From: Desulforegulaceae bacterium
Lineage (GTDB): Bacteria; Desulfobacterota; Desulfobacteria; Desulfobacterales; JACKCP01
NCBI GenBank assembly: GCA_034006035.1
Contig: JAVETN010000013.1
Coordinates: 1 to 64,000 of the forward strand
DNA length: 64,000 nucleotides
Reading direction: 5' to 3'
A program made the translations under genes and the position numbers. The notes beneath the pieces are model-generated. The model saw nothing but the letters and a program-made list of their open reading frames with translations, ran no database searches and had not been told where the DNA came from. Position 1 is the stretch's first letter; each line of letters begins with the position of its first letter. Below, in pieces: positions 5,357-59,473 of this stretch.

Positions 5357-6450
5357 AAAAAATAATTTTTATTTTTATAGTTTCAGGGCTTATATTTTCA
5401 GGAGTTTTGATTGTAAAAAAAAGAAAAGAAGTTTTAAACTCTTTTACCTCGGTTTCTGAAAAAGAAGTTTTGGTTGATTTTGTAAAAATTAAAAAAGGAA
5501 GTCTTGATTTAAAATATAAAACAATAGCTGAATTAAATGCAGATGAAATAATAAAAATTATTTCCCGAACAGAAGGCCGCCTTGAGTTTATGGAAAAAGA
5601 AAAAGGAGACAGGGTTTCAAAGGGAGAACTTCTTGCAGTTTTAGATACAAAAATAATTTTACAAAGAATTGAAGCTTTAAAAGGTGAAATTGAAAAACTT
5701 AAATCTGAAGCTGATTTTTTTCAAAAACGATATTCAAGGAACAAATCCCTTTTAAAAGGCGGAGGTATTTCAATAGATGAATTTGATAAATTAAAATCAG
5801 ATTATGAAAAAAGCCTTGGTCTTTTAAAAAAAGCAGATGCCGATAAAAAAGCTTTGGAAAAAGAACTTGGCTTTTCTAAAATTTACTCTCCTTTTGATGG
5901 AATAGTAATTGAAAAAAAAGCTAATAAATCAGAATTTATTCCAAAAGCTACTACTTTATATGAAATTGAAAACACCGGAAAAGGTTTTTATCTGCTTGTA
6001 AATGTCCCAAAAACTTTTTTACCTTTTATTTCAGATAATAAAATAATTTTAAATCAAAACATCAAAGAGTTTTCAACTTCAGTTCTAAAAATTAATCCAA
6101 AAATTGAAAATAACAAAGAAACAATTCAACTAGAGTCAAAAAGATTTAATTCAAAAGATTTTTATCTGCCTATAGGTACTAAAACAAGTGTTTTTCTCAT
6201 AAAAAAATCTGTGTCAGGTTTTGTTGTGCCAATGAACACAATTCTTTCACTTAAAGATTTTGATTATGTTTTTAGAATTAAAAATAACAATAAAACAGAG
6301 AAAATTAAGATAGAAATCCTTGGAATTGAAGGAAATCAAGGGGTTATTTATTCAAATCTTCTTGATGAAGATGATTTGCTTGTATCAGGGTATCCTTCTT
6401 TTTTAATGACTCTTTCAAGAAATTTGGAAGTAAAACCTTTAGAAAGATAA
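5353..6450 (+). CDS. RND efflux periplasmic adaptor (membrane fusion protein)
   Basis: A 365-residue HlyD/AcrA-type adaptor linking an inner-membrane RND pump to an outer-membrane channel. The N-terminal hydrophobic segment (residues 4-22) is a membrane anchor without a lipobox. A lipoyl/barrel-sandwich half follows (EGRLEFMEKEKGDRVSKGE), then a coiled-coil hairpin (about residues 105-175), the second lipoyl half (IYSPFDGIVIEKKA) and a beta-barrel. ATG overlaps the stop of the siroheme gene as ATGA, indicating translational coupling. The pump follows three bases downstream. No outer-membrane TolC-type gene is in the window. Confidence 0.88.
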   Translation: MKKIIFIFIVSGLIFSGVLIVKKRKEVLNSFTSVSEKEVLVDFVKIKKGSLDLKYKTIAELNADEIIKIISRTEGRLEFMEKEKGDRVSKGELLAVLDTKIILQRIEALKGEIEKLKSEADFFQKRYSRNKSLLKGGGISIDEFDKLKSDYEKSLGLLKKADADKKALEKELGFSKIYSPFDGIVIEKKANKSEFIPKATTLYEIENTGKGFYLLVNVPKTFLPFISDNKIILNQNIKEFSTSVLKINPKIENNKETIQLESKRFNSKDFYLPIGTKTSVFLIKKSVSGFVVPMNTILSLKDFDYVFRIKNNNKTEKIKIEILGIEGNQGVIYSNLLDEDDLLVSGYPSFLMTLSRNLEVKPLER

Positions 6451-55049: not shown

Positions 55050-55688
55050 TTAGCTTTTTCCTTCAAGAAGATTTTTTATCTCCATCATCTTGGATACATG
55101 AAAATCCGCCTCAAGCTTTTCATTGCAAAAGGCAATAAATTTAACTTCGGCTTTAAATGCTGCAATTTGGTCAAGTGGTGAGTCACCTATATAAAGCATG
55201 TTTTTAAACTTTATTTTAAGCTCATTTTTTATTTTAATAAGCTGTTCAGGGTGGGGCTTTGGATTTTCAACATCAGAGGCTGTTACAAGAATATCAAAGT
55301 AGGGATTTAGATTGAAAACTTCCATTACCCTGTCCATTGTATTTGATCTGTTTGTAGCAATCCCTGTTTTAAAATTATTGTTTTTTAAAAAATTAAGAAG
55401 CTCCATAAAGTTTTCGGTCATTTCCATATAAGGAACAAAATCTATATAAGGAACTCTTTTTCTTTCTTTTTGGATAAGTTTAGGATCAATGTTGTGGTTT
55501 TCAAAAAGATGTTTAATTGAATCTTCTCCTGTGTGCATTTTTACAAATTCAGACTGGGAGTCTGTCATTGGAGGAAGGTTCAGTCTTTTAAGAATGGCAT
55601 TATAATATTGTCTGTTTAGTTCTTCTGTCTGAAACATTACTCCGTCGCAGTCAAAAACTATGGTAGTTATATTTTGAAGTGAATTCAT
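55050..55688 (-). CDS. HAD-superfamily hydrolase (Gph/PGMB-like)
   Basis: A 212-residue phosphatase-like protein with HAD motif I FDCDGVMF (residues 12-19), motif II (GIATNRS), the motif III lysine (NPKPHPE) and motif IV (YIGDSPLDQ). A helical cap lies between motifs I and II, as in phosphoglycolate phosphatase relatives. The substrate is unknown. Last gene of a minus-strand operon with the DUF1573 and phosphoesterase genes (one-base gap). Confidence 0.88.
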   Translation of the reverse strand: MNSLQNITTIVFDCDGVMFQTEELNRQYYNAILKRLNLPPMTDSQSEFVKMHTGEDSIKHLFENHNIDPKLIQKERKRVPYIDFVPYMEMTENFMELLNFLKNNNFKTGIATNRSNTMDRVMEVFNLNPYFDILVTASDVENPKPHPEQLIKIKNELKIKFKNMLYIGDSPLDQIAAFKAEVKFIAFCNEKLEADFHVSKMMEIKNLLEGKS

Positions 55689-55689
55689 T

Positions 55690-56364
55690 TTATTTAATAT
55701 TCCCGAAAATGTTGATTCTTAGTGCTGGTTTAAGTTTGCTATCTGTTTTTAAAAATAAAATATCTGAATAAGTTCCTTTTTCTTTCTTTTTATTGGAGAT
55801 AACAAGACTAAAGGAATTATTTTCAAGCTTTTCAAGTTTGTAGTCAATTGATTTCCCATTTGCCGCAATCATATCAAGGATTTTAAATTCGTAGTTTTGT
55901 CTGGGAGTTATGATAATTGTTTCTTTTACTTCTTCTCCTACTTTTCCCCATAAATGTGCTTTTTCAGGCTCAATTGAAACAATGGAATTTATTTTAGCTG
56001 TTATTTTTAAAACAACCTTTTTGTTTTCATTATCATTGGTGTAAGCATAAACTTCCTCAACAATAGTTCTTCCCCCTTTTCCTGAAGTTGGGATTATGAT
56101 TTGAATTTCTCCTGTCATACCTGGCAGGACTTCCTCTGAGTAAGAGGGAATATCGCAGCCTCAGCCCCTTGCCTTTAGATTTTTAATTTCAAGTTTTTCA
56201 TTGCCCGAATTTTTGAACTTAAAAGTATGAACAAGTTTTTTTCCTTCAATTAGATCCTCATAAATAACCTCAGGCTCTTTTATTTCGAACTTAGGACTTT
56301 GGGCATAAATAAGGCTGGTCATTAAAATAAAGAGGGTAATTGTAAAAAAACAAATTTTTTTCAT
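55690..56364 (-). CDS. DUF1573 protein, candidate selenoprotein read through an in-frame UGA
   Basis: Two frames, 56161-56364 and 55690-56118, are the same frame interrupted only by TGA at 56163-56161 (minus). Joined, they give a 224-residue secreted protein: signal peptide (residues 1-21, ending IYAQ), the DUF1573 strand pattern (GKKLVHTFKFKNSGNEKLEIKNL), and after the TGA a PGMTGEIQIII segment, YAYTND and a second domain (VSIEPEKAHLWGKVGEEVKET). In DUF1573 proteins the KNL-like strand is followed by a conserved CGC motif. Here the codons read GGC TGA GGC TGC, so the UGA replaces the first Cys exactly (UGC). That, and the intact reading frame afterwards, argue for selenocysteine over a nonsense mutation. 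A hairpin can be drawn just after the UGA, but it lacks the usual loop G. A pseudogene or sequencing error remains possible. Confidence 0.65.
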
Positions 56365-56365
56365 T

Positions 56366-56857
56366 TTAAATTTTTACCTTTATTATTTCACTGGTTTTGG
56401 TGTTGTAAAGAGCAAATCCCGGGCTTCCTTCTTTTCCCATTATTTCTCCAGGGTTCAATAATAGTGTTGAGTTTATTTTTTTGCAATACCAGGTATGGGA
56501 ATGCCCAAAACACACAAGATCGTATTGTTCTGATTTTGCAAGGGGTTTGGCTAGATCAAAATAATGGGTGAATGCTATTTTTTTAAAGTTTAAGTTTATT
56601 TCTCCAAATCTTTCATAGAGTTTTACATTTTTAAGAATTGTTTTTGTATACTCAATCATTTTTATTTTGTCACCGTCATTGTTTCCAAAAACTCCGTAAA
56701 AAGGTATGTTAATTGATGCCAAAAGCTTTAAGGAAAAAGGAGCAATAAAATCTCCGCAATGGATAATTGCTTCAACTTTTTTTTGCCTGCATATCAAAAG
56801 AGCTTTTTGAATCATATCAAGGTGGTCGTGGCTGTCACTCATTATTGCTATAAGCAT
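56366..56857 (-). CDS. YfcE/MJ0936-type metallophosphoesterase
   Basis: A 163-residue calcineurin-like phosphoesterase with the ligand motifs SDSHDH (residues 7-12), HCGDF, GNNDGD, FTHYF and GHSHTWY. It acts in the cytoplasm on a phosphodiester, substrate unknown. It lies one base before the DUF1573 gene and is the first gene of that operon. Confidence 0.9.
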   Translation of the reverse strand: MLIAIMSDSHDHLDMIQKALLICRQKKVEAIIHCGDFIAPFSLKLLASINIPFYGVFGNNDGDKIKMIEYTKTILKNVKLYERFGEINLNFKKIAFTHYFDLAKPLAKSEQYDLVCFGHSHTWYCKKINSTLLLNPGEIMGKEGSPGFALYNTKTSEIIKVKI

Positions 56858-57064
56858 TTGTTTTCACTCAAAAGGAAAGAAATTAAAATAAATATAAAAA
56901 CACCTAAAAAAGCCTGAACCATCTTTTTTCCCCTCAAGATTTAAATATTTGAGATATCCCAGGATAAGCTTTTTATCATCAACCAAACAACTTTAACTAG
57001 AGCAGAGCTGATTTTAGGCTTGTCAAATGAATCTGTCAAAATATTAAGGGCTGATTTTGTTTTT

Positions 57065-59473
57065 TTACATCATTGAGTATGGGTCGATATCAAAAGTAAC
57101 TCTTAAATCAGAAGGCAGGGATGAAAAAGTTGATTTAAATTGTTTTAAAATAAGATTTAATTCTCCTGCGGTTTTTGATTTTAAAAGAATTTGAAAACGA
57201 AACCTTGTCGCAGCAATATAAACTGGAGATTTTGCTGGTCCCATTATAATTATTTCCGATTTTAATTCAGACTTTAAATTCTCAAGACAATTTCTGCATT
57301 TTTTTGAAAATTGATCCGCAAGCTCTTCTTTGGTACCGGAAATTTTAACAAGGGCTATTTTTGCAAAAGGAGGATAAAAAAGCGACTTTCTAAAATTTAT
57401 CTCTTCTTTGTAAAAATTTATAAAATTCTGGGTTTTTGCGGTTTGAATGGAAAAATGGTCGGGATTATAGGTCTGCATAATGACTTTACCTTTTTTTTCA
57501 CCCCTTCCAGTTCTTCCTGCAACCTGAGACAAAACCTGGAATGTTTTTTCGGCTGCTCTGAAATCTGGGAAATTAAATCCATGGTCGGCATTTATTATTC
57601 CAACAAGGGTGATGTTTGGAAAGTCATGGCCTTTGGCAATCATCTGGGTTCCAATAATAATATCTGCTTTTTTTTGTCTGATTGCCTTGAGTTTTTTTAC
57701 AAGTTCTCCTTTTTTTCTTGTTGTGTCCTGATCCAGCCTTATTATTGTTGAATCCCTGAATAAAAATTCGCAAGCTTTTTCTATTTTTTCAGTTCCTGTC
57801 CCAAGGTGAACAAGTTCTGGGTTTGCACAGTTTGGACATTCTTTTGGAATTTTTTGTCTATATCCGCAAAGATGGCAAACAAGACTTTCGTTTGATTTAT
57901 GATATGTCATTGTAACTGAGCAAAATCTGCATTTCAAAGCTTCAGAGCAAAGGTTGCACAAAAGAAAGCTTGAATAGCCTCTTTTGTTTAAAAAAAGAAG
58001 AACCTGTTCCTTTTGCTTAAGTCTTTTATTTATTTCCATTGCAAGATAATATGAAATAAACCTGTAAGCTCCTTTGTCTTTGGCTGATTTTTTTAAATCA
58101 TAAACAGAAACTTCAGGAAGACAGGATTTATTTACTCTTTTTTTTAAATAAAGGATTTCAAACTTATTGGTTTGGGTATTTGTATAGGTTTCAATAGAAG
58201 GAGTGGCAGAACCAAGCACCACAGGGCAATTTTCGGTTTTTGCCCTTACAATTGCCATATCTCTTGCATTGTAGTTGGGAGCTGAATCTTGTTTGTATGA
58301 TTGGTCATGCTCTTCATCAACAACTATAACTCCTATGTTTTCAAGGGGGGCAAAAATTGCAGATCTTGCTCCTATTACAACTGTTTTTTTCTTTTCAGCA
58401 ATCAAAGTCCATTGATCAAGCTTTTCTCCTGGAGATAGATTGGAATGAATTACAGCTGTCTGGTCTCCAAACCTTGCCTTAAATCTTCTTTCTGTTTGGG
58501 AAATAAGAGAAATTTCAGGGACAAGCACAAGGGCAGTTTTTTTTAATTCCAGGGCTTGTTTTACAAGATTTAAATAAACTTCGGTTTTTCCGCTTCCTGT
58601 AATTCCGTAAAGAAGATACCTTTTAAATTTTTTTCCAACAAAAGGTTTTATCTTTTCAAAGGCCTGAAGCTGTTCCTCATTTAAAACAGGAGGAATGTCT
58701 TTTTCCACAGCCTCGCCAAGGGGATCTCTTAAAACTCTTTTTTCACTTTCTTTTACAAGCCCTTTTTTAATCAAAGCATTAATTACTTGTGATGAGCCTT
58801 TTTCTTTTGCACTTATTTCTTTTTTTAAAACTTCTTTATCAAAGGGAATTCTTTCTAGAACTCTTATTTGTTTATCAGTAAGTTTGGTTATTGATTCAGA
58901 TTTTTGTCTTTTAAGAAAGTTTTCAAGTTTTTCTTTGGTTTTAGGTTTTGGGATAAAAAATTCAAACTCAATTAAATCTTTATTTCTAAGGCTGTTCAGT
59001 TCGTTTTTTTTAACACCTGAGCCAAGAAGTTCTTTTTCTGTTTTTTCCCCGTCTCTTAAAAGGTTTAAGACTTTAAAAGTTGTGTAATTTTTTGGGTCAT
59101 TTAATAATTCCAGTCCCTTGGGAGTTGTTTTAAATATTTTTGAAATATCAGGGTTAATTCCAGAAGGAAGGGCTGATTTAATTACAAGGCCTGGAGGGTA
59201 AATATAATAATTTGAAATCCATTCAAAAAGACTTAAGAGTTTTTCTGAAAAAAACGAATTTTTATCAGGAACTTCTATAATCTCTTTAATTTGGAAGTCT
59301 GTTTCAGGTTTTTTATTTAATACTTTTTTTATATATCCTGTTATTTTTCTGTTTCCAACAGGAGCTATCACTCTTTTTCCTGGTTCAACTTCTTTTTCAA
59401 GGTATTTTGGCACTCCATAAATAAAGAAATCATTCACAGGAAGGCAAAGATAAACTTCAATGTATAAATTCAT
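57065..59473 (-). CDS. priA: Primosomal protein N' (PriA helicase)
   Basis: An 802-residue 3'-5' DNA helicase that restarts stalled replication forks. The N-terminal 3'-DNA-binding domain (VNDFFIYGVPKYLE) leads to Walker A LYGITGSGKTEVYL (about residue 290), the DEEHD box, and a zinc-binding block with four CXXC pairs (CNLC, CRFC, CHLC, CPNC). The C-terminal helicase motifs (QMIAKGHDFPNITLVGI, QVAGRTGRG) follow. No clear Shine-Dalgarno precedes the ATG. It is followed upstream on this strand by nadE (39-base gap). Confidence 0.95.
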   Translation of the reverse strand: MNLYIEVYLCLPVNDFFIYGVPKYLEKEVEPGKRVIAPVGNRKITGYIKKVLNKKPETDFQIKEIIEVPDKNSFFSEKLLSLFEWISNYYIYPPGLVIKSALPSGINPDISKIFKTTPKGLELLNDPKNYTTFKVLNLLRDGEKTEKELLGSGVKKNELNSLRNKDLIEFEFFIPKPKTKEKLENFLKRQKSESITKLTDKQIRVLERIPFDKEVLKKEISAKEKGSSQVINALIKKGLVKESEKRVLRDPLGEAVEKDIPPVLNEEQLQAFEKIKPFVGKKFKRYLLYGITGSGKTEVYLNLVKQALELKKTALVLVPEISLISQTERRFKARFGDQTAVIHSNLSPGEKLDQWTLIAEKKKTVVIGARSAIFAPLENIGVIVVDEEHDQSYKQDSAPNYNARDMAIVRAKTENCPVVLGSATPSIETYTNTQTNKFEILYLKKRVNKSCLPEVSVYDLKKSAKDKGAYRFISYYLAMEINKRLKQKEQVLLFLNKRGYSSFLLCNLCSEALKCRFCSVTMTYHKSNESLVCHLCGYRQKIPKECPNCANPELVHLGTGTEKIEKACEFLFRDSTIIRLDQDTTRKKGELVKKLKAIRQKKADIIIGTQMIAKGHDFPNITLVGIINADHGFNFPDFRAAEKTFQVLSQVAGRTGRGEKKGKVIMQTYNPDHFSIQTAKTQNFINFYKEEINFRKSLFYPPFAKIALVKISGTKEELADQFSKKCRNCLENLKSELKSEIIIMGPAKSPVYIAATRFRFQILLKSKTAGELNLILKQFKSTFSSLPSDLRVTFDIDPYSMM

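Follow-up and report, generated by a model that had tools for sequence, protein, structure and literature searches.

An in-frame UGA in a DUF1573 gene on the minus strand of the window (the whole 64,000-nucleotide stretch of DNA analysed here) is assigned with high confidence as a selenocysteine codon in a gene of the OS_HP2/DUF1573 selenoprotein family; this confidence applies to the decoding and the family membership jointly, while the biochemistry of the protein is graded on its own below. On sequence grounds the gene is a divergent new member of that known family and not a new family, because full-length homology, gene order and motif argue for membership. Codon identity, codon conservation, the decoding machinery and the RNA structure of the family were computed, and from these we infer the insertion of selenocysteine itself.

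Reading frame and decoding machinery

The gene occupies positions 55690-56364 (minus strand), where a single DUF1573 reading frame is interrupted by a TGA at 56163-56161, the strand reading ...GCA AGG GGC TGA GGC TGC GAT.... When TGA was translated as U, one unbroken protein of 224 residues was obtained (56364-55693, ending at a TAA stop), which matched PF07610 (DUF1573) with 50.2 bits (cut-off 26.1). The preliminary description had placed the UGA exactly on the first cysteine of the DUF1573 CGC motif, in one otherwise uninterrupted protein and with GGC TGA GGC TGC giving G-U-G-C at the family CGC; the alignment of relatives, the full-length translation and the window sequence bear out these three points. 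The predicted selenocysteine is residue 68 (56161-56163), and its partner in the U-G-C motif, Cys 70 (56155-56157), is invariant among the aligned relatives. As judged from the sequence itself, the codons at 56302-56364 probably encode a signal peptide (MKKICFFTITLFILMTSLIYA), and residues 7-17 form an N-terminal helix in the structural model. Apart from the TGA, the frame carries no further disabling change, and over 100 relatives keep it both before and after the TGA, so that the observation in the window is not due to chance. Two more TGA-bearing open stretches flagged in the scan of the window had no sign of being genes.

The source genome (2.64 Mb, completeness 97.7%) was searched for the selenocysteine machinery, as the preliminary description had proposed, and all four components were found: selA (613 bits), selB (365 bits), selD (352 bits) and the tRNA-Sec gene selC (81 bits), the last of which was also called by ARAGORN with a UCA anticodon. 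The selD gene has an in-frame TGA of its own in the motif SGUAAKIG, which we take to be the known selenocysteine site of SelD, and this suggests that UGA is decoded as selenocysteine elsewhere in the source genome. The selD codon (L047:1531-1533, G000:C11) is followed by a hairpin with a GGU loop at 20 nt, which makes selD a second selenoprotein gene of the source genome. Across the phylum sample, selB scored over the cut-off in 270 of 296 genomes and was therefore too common for a correlation with the Sec/Cys state to be obtained. Five genomes with a TGA-bearing DUF1573 gene gave no full-length selB match (G108, G154, G175, G266 and G356); each is in at least 170 contigs, and the absence of selB is probably due to incomplete assembly.

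Relatives and family membership

A DUF1573 homologue was identified in 131 of the 146 genomes of the same order. About 130 of the approximately 150 order-level matches listed contained exactly one TGA and 20 were without any stop, while neither TAA nor TAG was found among these matches. In the phylum sample, 113 of 296 genomes gave a match, many with one TGA, and one fragmentary match contained both TAG and TAA. Among the fetched loci, some rows of which represent the same gene fetched twice, the aligned codon was TGA in 112 and a cysteine codon in 11 (8 TGC, 3 TGT); a further 12 rows had a gap at this position. No stop other than TGA occurred at this codon in the 123 fetched relatives that have it. 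The comparison of homologues suggested in the preliminary description thus returned TGA or a cysteine codon at the site, and random disabling mutations almost never. Named carriers include Desulfocicer vacuolatum DSM 3385, Desulfamplus magnetovallimortis and the Olavius-associated Delta 1 symbiont, from a scan that used closer query sequences and is biased toward close relatives.

In a tree of 104 proteins (nine with cysteine), the Sec/Cys state required approximately six changes, at least four of them being forced by supported branches, with the bootstrap not fully settled. The cysteine-containing DUF1573 proteins (C-G-C) share the fold and the position of the motif with the window protein, but have TGC or TGT in place of TGA, and their hairpins are largely missing. 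Some stand in tandem with a Sec copy: at L059 (G066:C37:14664-16235) the two copies adjoin and the hairpins are kept by the Sec copy only, and Sec and Cys copies are likewise side by side at L028/L107. The L126 locus (6112-6120) reads U-Q-C and not U-G-C; no other Sec member was seen to differ in this way.

The preliminary description had called the gene a candidate new selenoprotein. The machinery, the TGA and cysteine homologues and the RNA structure uphold the selenoprotein part of that claim; its novelty is not supported, given OS_HP2 (2007) and NF041425. OS_HP2 was reportedly described by Zhang and Gladyshev in 2007 as a selenoprotein of O. algarvensis Delta 1. DUF1573 (PF07610), with the motif UGC, appears in tables of selenoprotein families as originating from Zhang & Gladyshev 2007 (PMC9312934, 2022; PMC13188914, 2026), and an earlier table has OS_HP2 under pfam07610 with the motif UxC (PMC2398784, 2008). 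The NCBIfam model NF041425 is named 'OS_HP2 family (seleno)protein' and was matched by all 39 of 39 aligned members. It was also the sole NCBIfam match of the window protein, at 83.6 bits (E 9e-24) against a curated cut-off of 100, so that annotation pipelines would probably miss this gene.

The window protein has the same Pfam domain as the OS_HP2/DUF1573 selenoproteins, with selenocysteine at the same first position of C-G-C, and its full-length identity to family members is approximately 30-38%, a range that includes the homologue of the Olavius-associated Delta 1 symbiont (L086), to which it is homologous over its full length. It differs from OS_HP2 in falling below the NF041425 cut-off, in having PGM and not PGG after the motif, in a first hairpin that is shifted by one base and in its long tree branch (1.22).

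Orthology is supported, despite this level of identity, by recurring HAD and priA neighbours. The gene row priA-yfcE-DUF1573-HAD extends over 55050-59473 (minus strand), with DUF1573 fitting nearly gaplessly between yfcE and HAD. Upstream lie a YfcE-type metallophosphoesterase gene (56366-56857; TIGR00040, 93 bits; present in 6 of 62 loci) and then priA (57065-59473; NF004066, 828 bits), while the start codon of a HAD-family phosphatase gene (55050-55688; PF13419) is found just after the DUF1573 stop. The row partly recurs in Desulfobacterales relatives: of 62 loci, 39 have HAD after the gene and 25 have priA before it, in every case on the same strand. In 14 loci, a DNA polymerase I-like gene is located further downstream. 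There was no plasmid match, and gene rows containing priA say little about function.

Other accounts of the TGA were weighed against selenocysteine. Were it a nonsense mutation or sequencing error in a cysteine-containing DUF1573 gene, the long branch of the window protein and the unremarkable fold energy of the window taken alone (see below) would be as expected, but 112 of the 123 aligned relatives, drawn from many independent assemblies, have TGA at this codon too, the frame has no other disabling change and codon choice around the UGA in the family preserves the hairpins. A pseudogene or artefact is already refuted as a general account, and we consider it extremely improbable for the window gene. 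The TGA could also be a real stop, giving a short protein of 67 residues and a downstream product from the ATG at 56118, where an ATG-started ORF of 142 residues (55690-56118) does exist. This ORF, however, would split the first Ig-like domain, within which it begins at the loop of the second hairpin; Gly takes the place of Met there in most aligned relatives, and the whole fold is conserved through the codon, leaving this account with a very small probability. The same holds for UGA being read in another way, either through near-cognate suppression that inserts, for instance, Trp or Cys, or through a genome-wide change of code; no support for this was found. Nine of the 37 long ORFs of the window end in TGA, which indicates a standard genetic code; homologues without TGA have Cys and not Trp at the site, and the complete selenocysteine machinery is present. 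Selenocysteine at residue 68 is accordingly retained as the reading of the codon, and the RNA downstream of it is considered next.

RNA hairpins downstream of the UGA

Two hairpins follow the UGA in most Sec members of the family: H1, at +13 to +28 and typically GUCUC-loop-GAGAC, and H2, at +32 to +51 and typically UCCCUC..CC-GGC-GG..GAGGGA. Across 75 distinct sequences (window excluded), this two-hairpin structure was 85.5% paired, with changes on both sides at 10 of 13 pairs, including all five of H1. For the structure as a whole none of 500 shuffles reached the observed value on any measure, and slid controls paired far less. Because the region encodes a conserved protein, the most important RNA test was a shuffle in which synonymous codons were swapped between sequences within each column and every protein was kept; with phylogeny ignored, pairing was 90.3% against 82.1% expected for H1 (0/500) and 81.8% against 80.5% for H2 (6/500). 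Pairing still held in four loci with an extra codon between the arms (L104, L111, L118 and L121). RNAalifold alone, applied to the 75 sequences, gave just three consensus pairs, in another register. The H1 pairs were each formed in 27-55% of the Cys members, in which both stems are mostly missing. A downstream stem-loop is therefore conserved in Sec members and largely missing in Cys members, and the RNA signal that the preliminary description had advised looking for was found as a conserved structure of the family.

In the window, H1 is CCUCU-UACUC-AGAGG at +14 to +28 (56133-56147, minus strand), one base out of step with the family H1, whose five pairs all show compensatory changes within the family. 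H2 is UCCUG-C-CA-GGUA-UG-A-CAGGA at +32 to +51 (56110-56129, minus strand), in the family register; it is the likely SECIS apex, and its apical loop GGUA (56118-56121) lies 39 nt after the UGA. Relative to the family, H2 has changed on both sides of two pairs (U-A for C-G and G-C for U-A) with the register kept. Pair probabilities were 0.7-0.97 for H1 and approximately 0.5-0.6 for H2. Folding of this stretch was energetically no more favourable than that of its synonymous shuffles (z about 0 to 0.8), which means that the window by itself would be no proof of a structure. When the window was excluded from its construction, a covariance model nonetheless placed its best site in the window at this element (24.9 bits, E 6e-5), which was also its best site in the genome (E 0.003), the score deriving mostly from sequence and not from pairing. 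An Rfam scan of the window gave no matches; the Rfam SECIS_1 model found nothing in the window and nothing in the controls either, and is uninformative here.

The bSECIS model specifies an apical loop of 3-9 nt with a G in its first two positions, a stem of 4-16 bp, a distance from UGA to apical loop of 16-37 nt for most elements and a minimum free energy at or below -7.5 kcal/mol (PMC13188914). The window resembles this model in having hairpins right after the UGA and an H2 loop that begins with GGU, and H2 agrees with the loop and stem rule (loop GGUA, 5+2 bp, one mismatch). It differs in having two hairpins and in the distance of the G-bearing loop, 39 nt and not 16-37, so that H2 breaks the spacing rule, while H1, with no G in the first two loop places, breaks the loop rule. 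The two hairpins together fold at -13.2 kcal/mol and H2 alone at -6.6 (model threshold -7.5). The stem named in the preliminary description exists and is H1, with the loop UACUC, but its paired part starts at +14 and UUCC at +11, not 9 bases after the UGA, and the GGC/GCC lower stem that had been suggested is absent from the predicted minimum-energy fold. The remark that its loop has no consensus G holds for H1, while the second hairpin, which had been overlooked, has GGUA; the stem named at that time is probably not the SelB-binding loop.

It is proposed that SelB with Sec-tRNA would bind the RNA just downstream of the UGA and thereby direct selenocysteine to residue 68, the first of U-G-C, the GGU-type loop of H2 being the most likely binding site. 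H1 would fold away approximately 15 nt and so bring the H2 loop to an effective distance normal for a bacterial SECIS. That the OS_HP2 family as a whole uses such a two-hairpin SECIS, in which a conserved hairpin folds out between the UGA and a GGU-type loop that lies farther away than normal, is advanced tentatively and given clearly less than an even chance. No description of such an arrangement was found in the literature searched, an absence that is no proof of novelty. Selenocysteine may instead be inserted through recognition of H1 by SelB, with H2 reflecting only conserved protein sequence, and this is judged somewhat less likely than not. In its favour, compensatory changes are clearer in H1, its departure from codon shuffles is stronger and its loop is at a standard distance of about 17-18 nt. 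Against it, neither of the first two positions of the H1 loop is a G in the window or in most relatives, contrary to the consensus. The H2 loop, by contrast, is GGUA in the window and GG[C/U] in most members, and the selD hairpin of the source genome carries a GGU loop.

Protein structure and significance

The AlphaFold2 model of the window protein (mean pLDDT 91.7) has two beta-sandwich (Ig-like) domains; the U-G-C motif sits in the first of them, on the loop between strands 58-66 and 84-92. No relative with a solved structure was found by sequence. The first domain resembled HYDIN/PapD-like (ASH) Ig folds, including the C-terminal domain of HYDIN (2e6j, Z 10.3), VesC (6bqm, Z 11.7) and a P. 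gingivalis protein (2qsv); the first two superposed over about 100 residues with an rmsd of 2.1-2.5, but identity to these structures was 8-17%, and the shared fold says nothing of function. Judging from the signal peptide read by eye, the protein is probably exported. The adjacent selenol and thiol on an exported domain point to redox exchange or the binding of a soft metal, and the two groups would most likely work as a pair. Periplasmic thiol/selenol redox chemistry or metal binding is the most likely putative function. A roughly even chance is given to thiol/disulfide or peroxide chemistry in which the pair would cycle via a selenenyl-sulfide, and a clearly lower one to the binding of a soft metal.

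The annotation is corrected here for a gene that automated pipelines would either break in two or cut short at the UGA. The family is a little-known selenoprotein, probably exported, that is present in most of the genomes sampled from its order and elsewhere in the phylum too. The neighbouring Sec and Cys copies at L059 are a natural test pair for selenocysteine versus cysteine, and the double hairpin, kept across 75 distinct sequences, is a natural data set for SelB recognition under a broken spacing rule.
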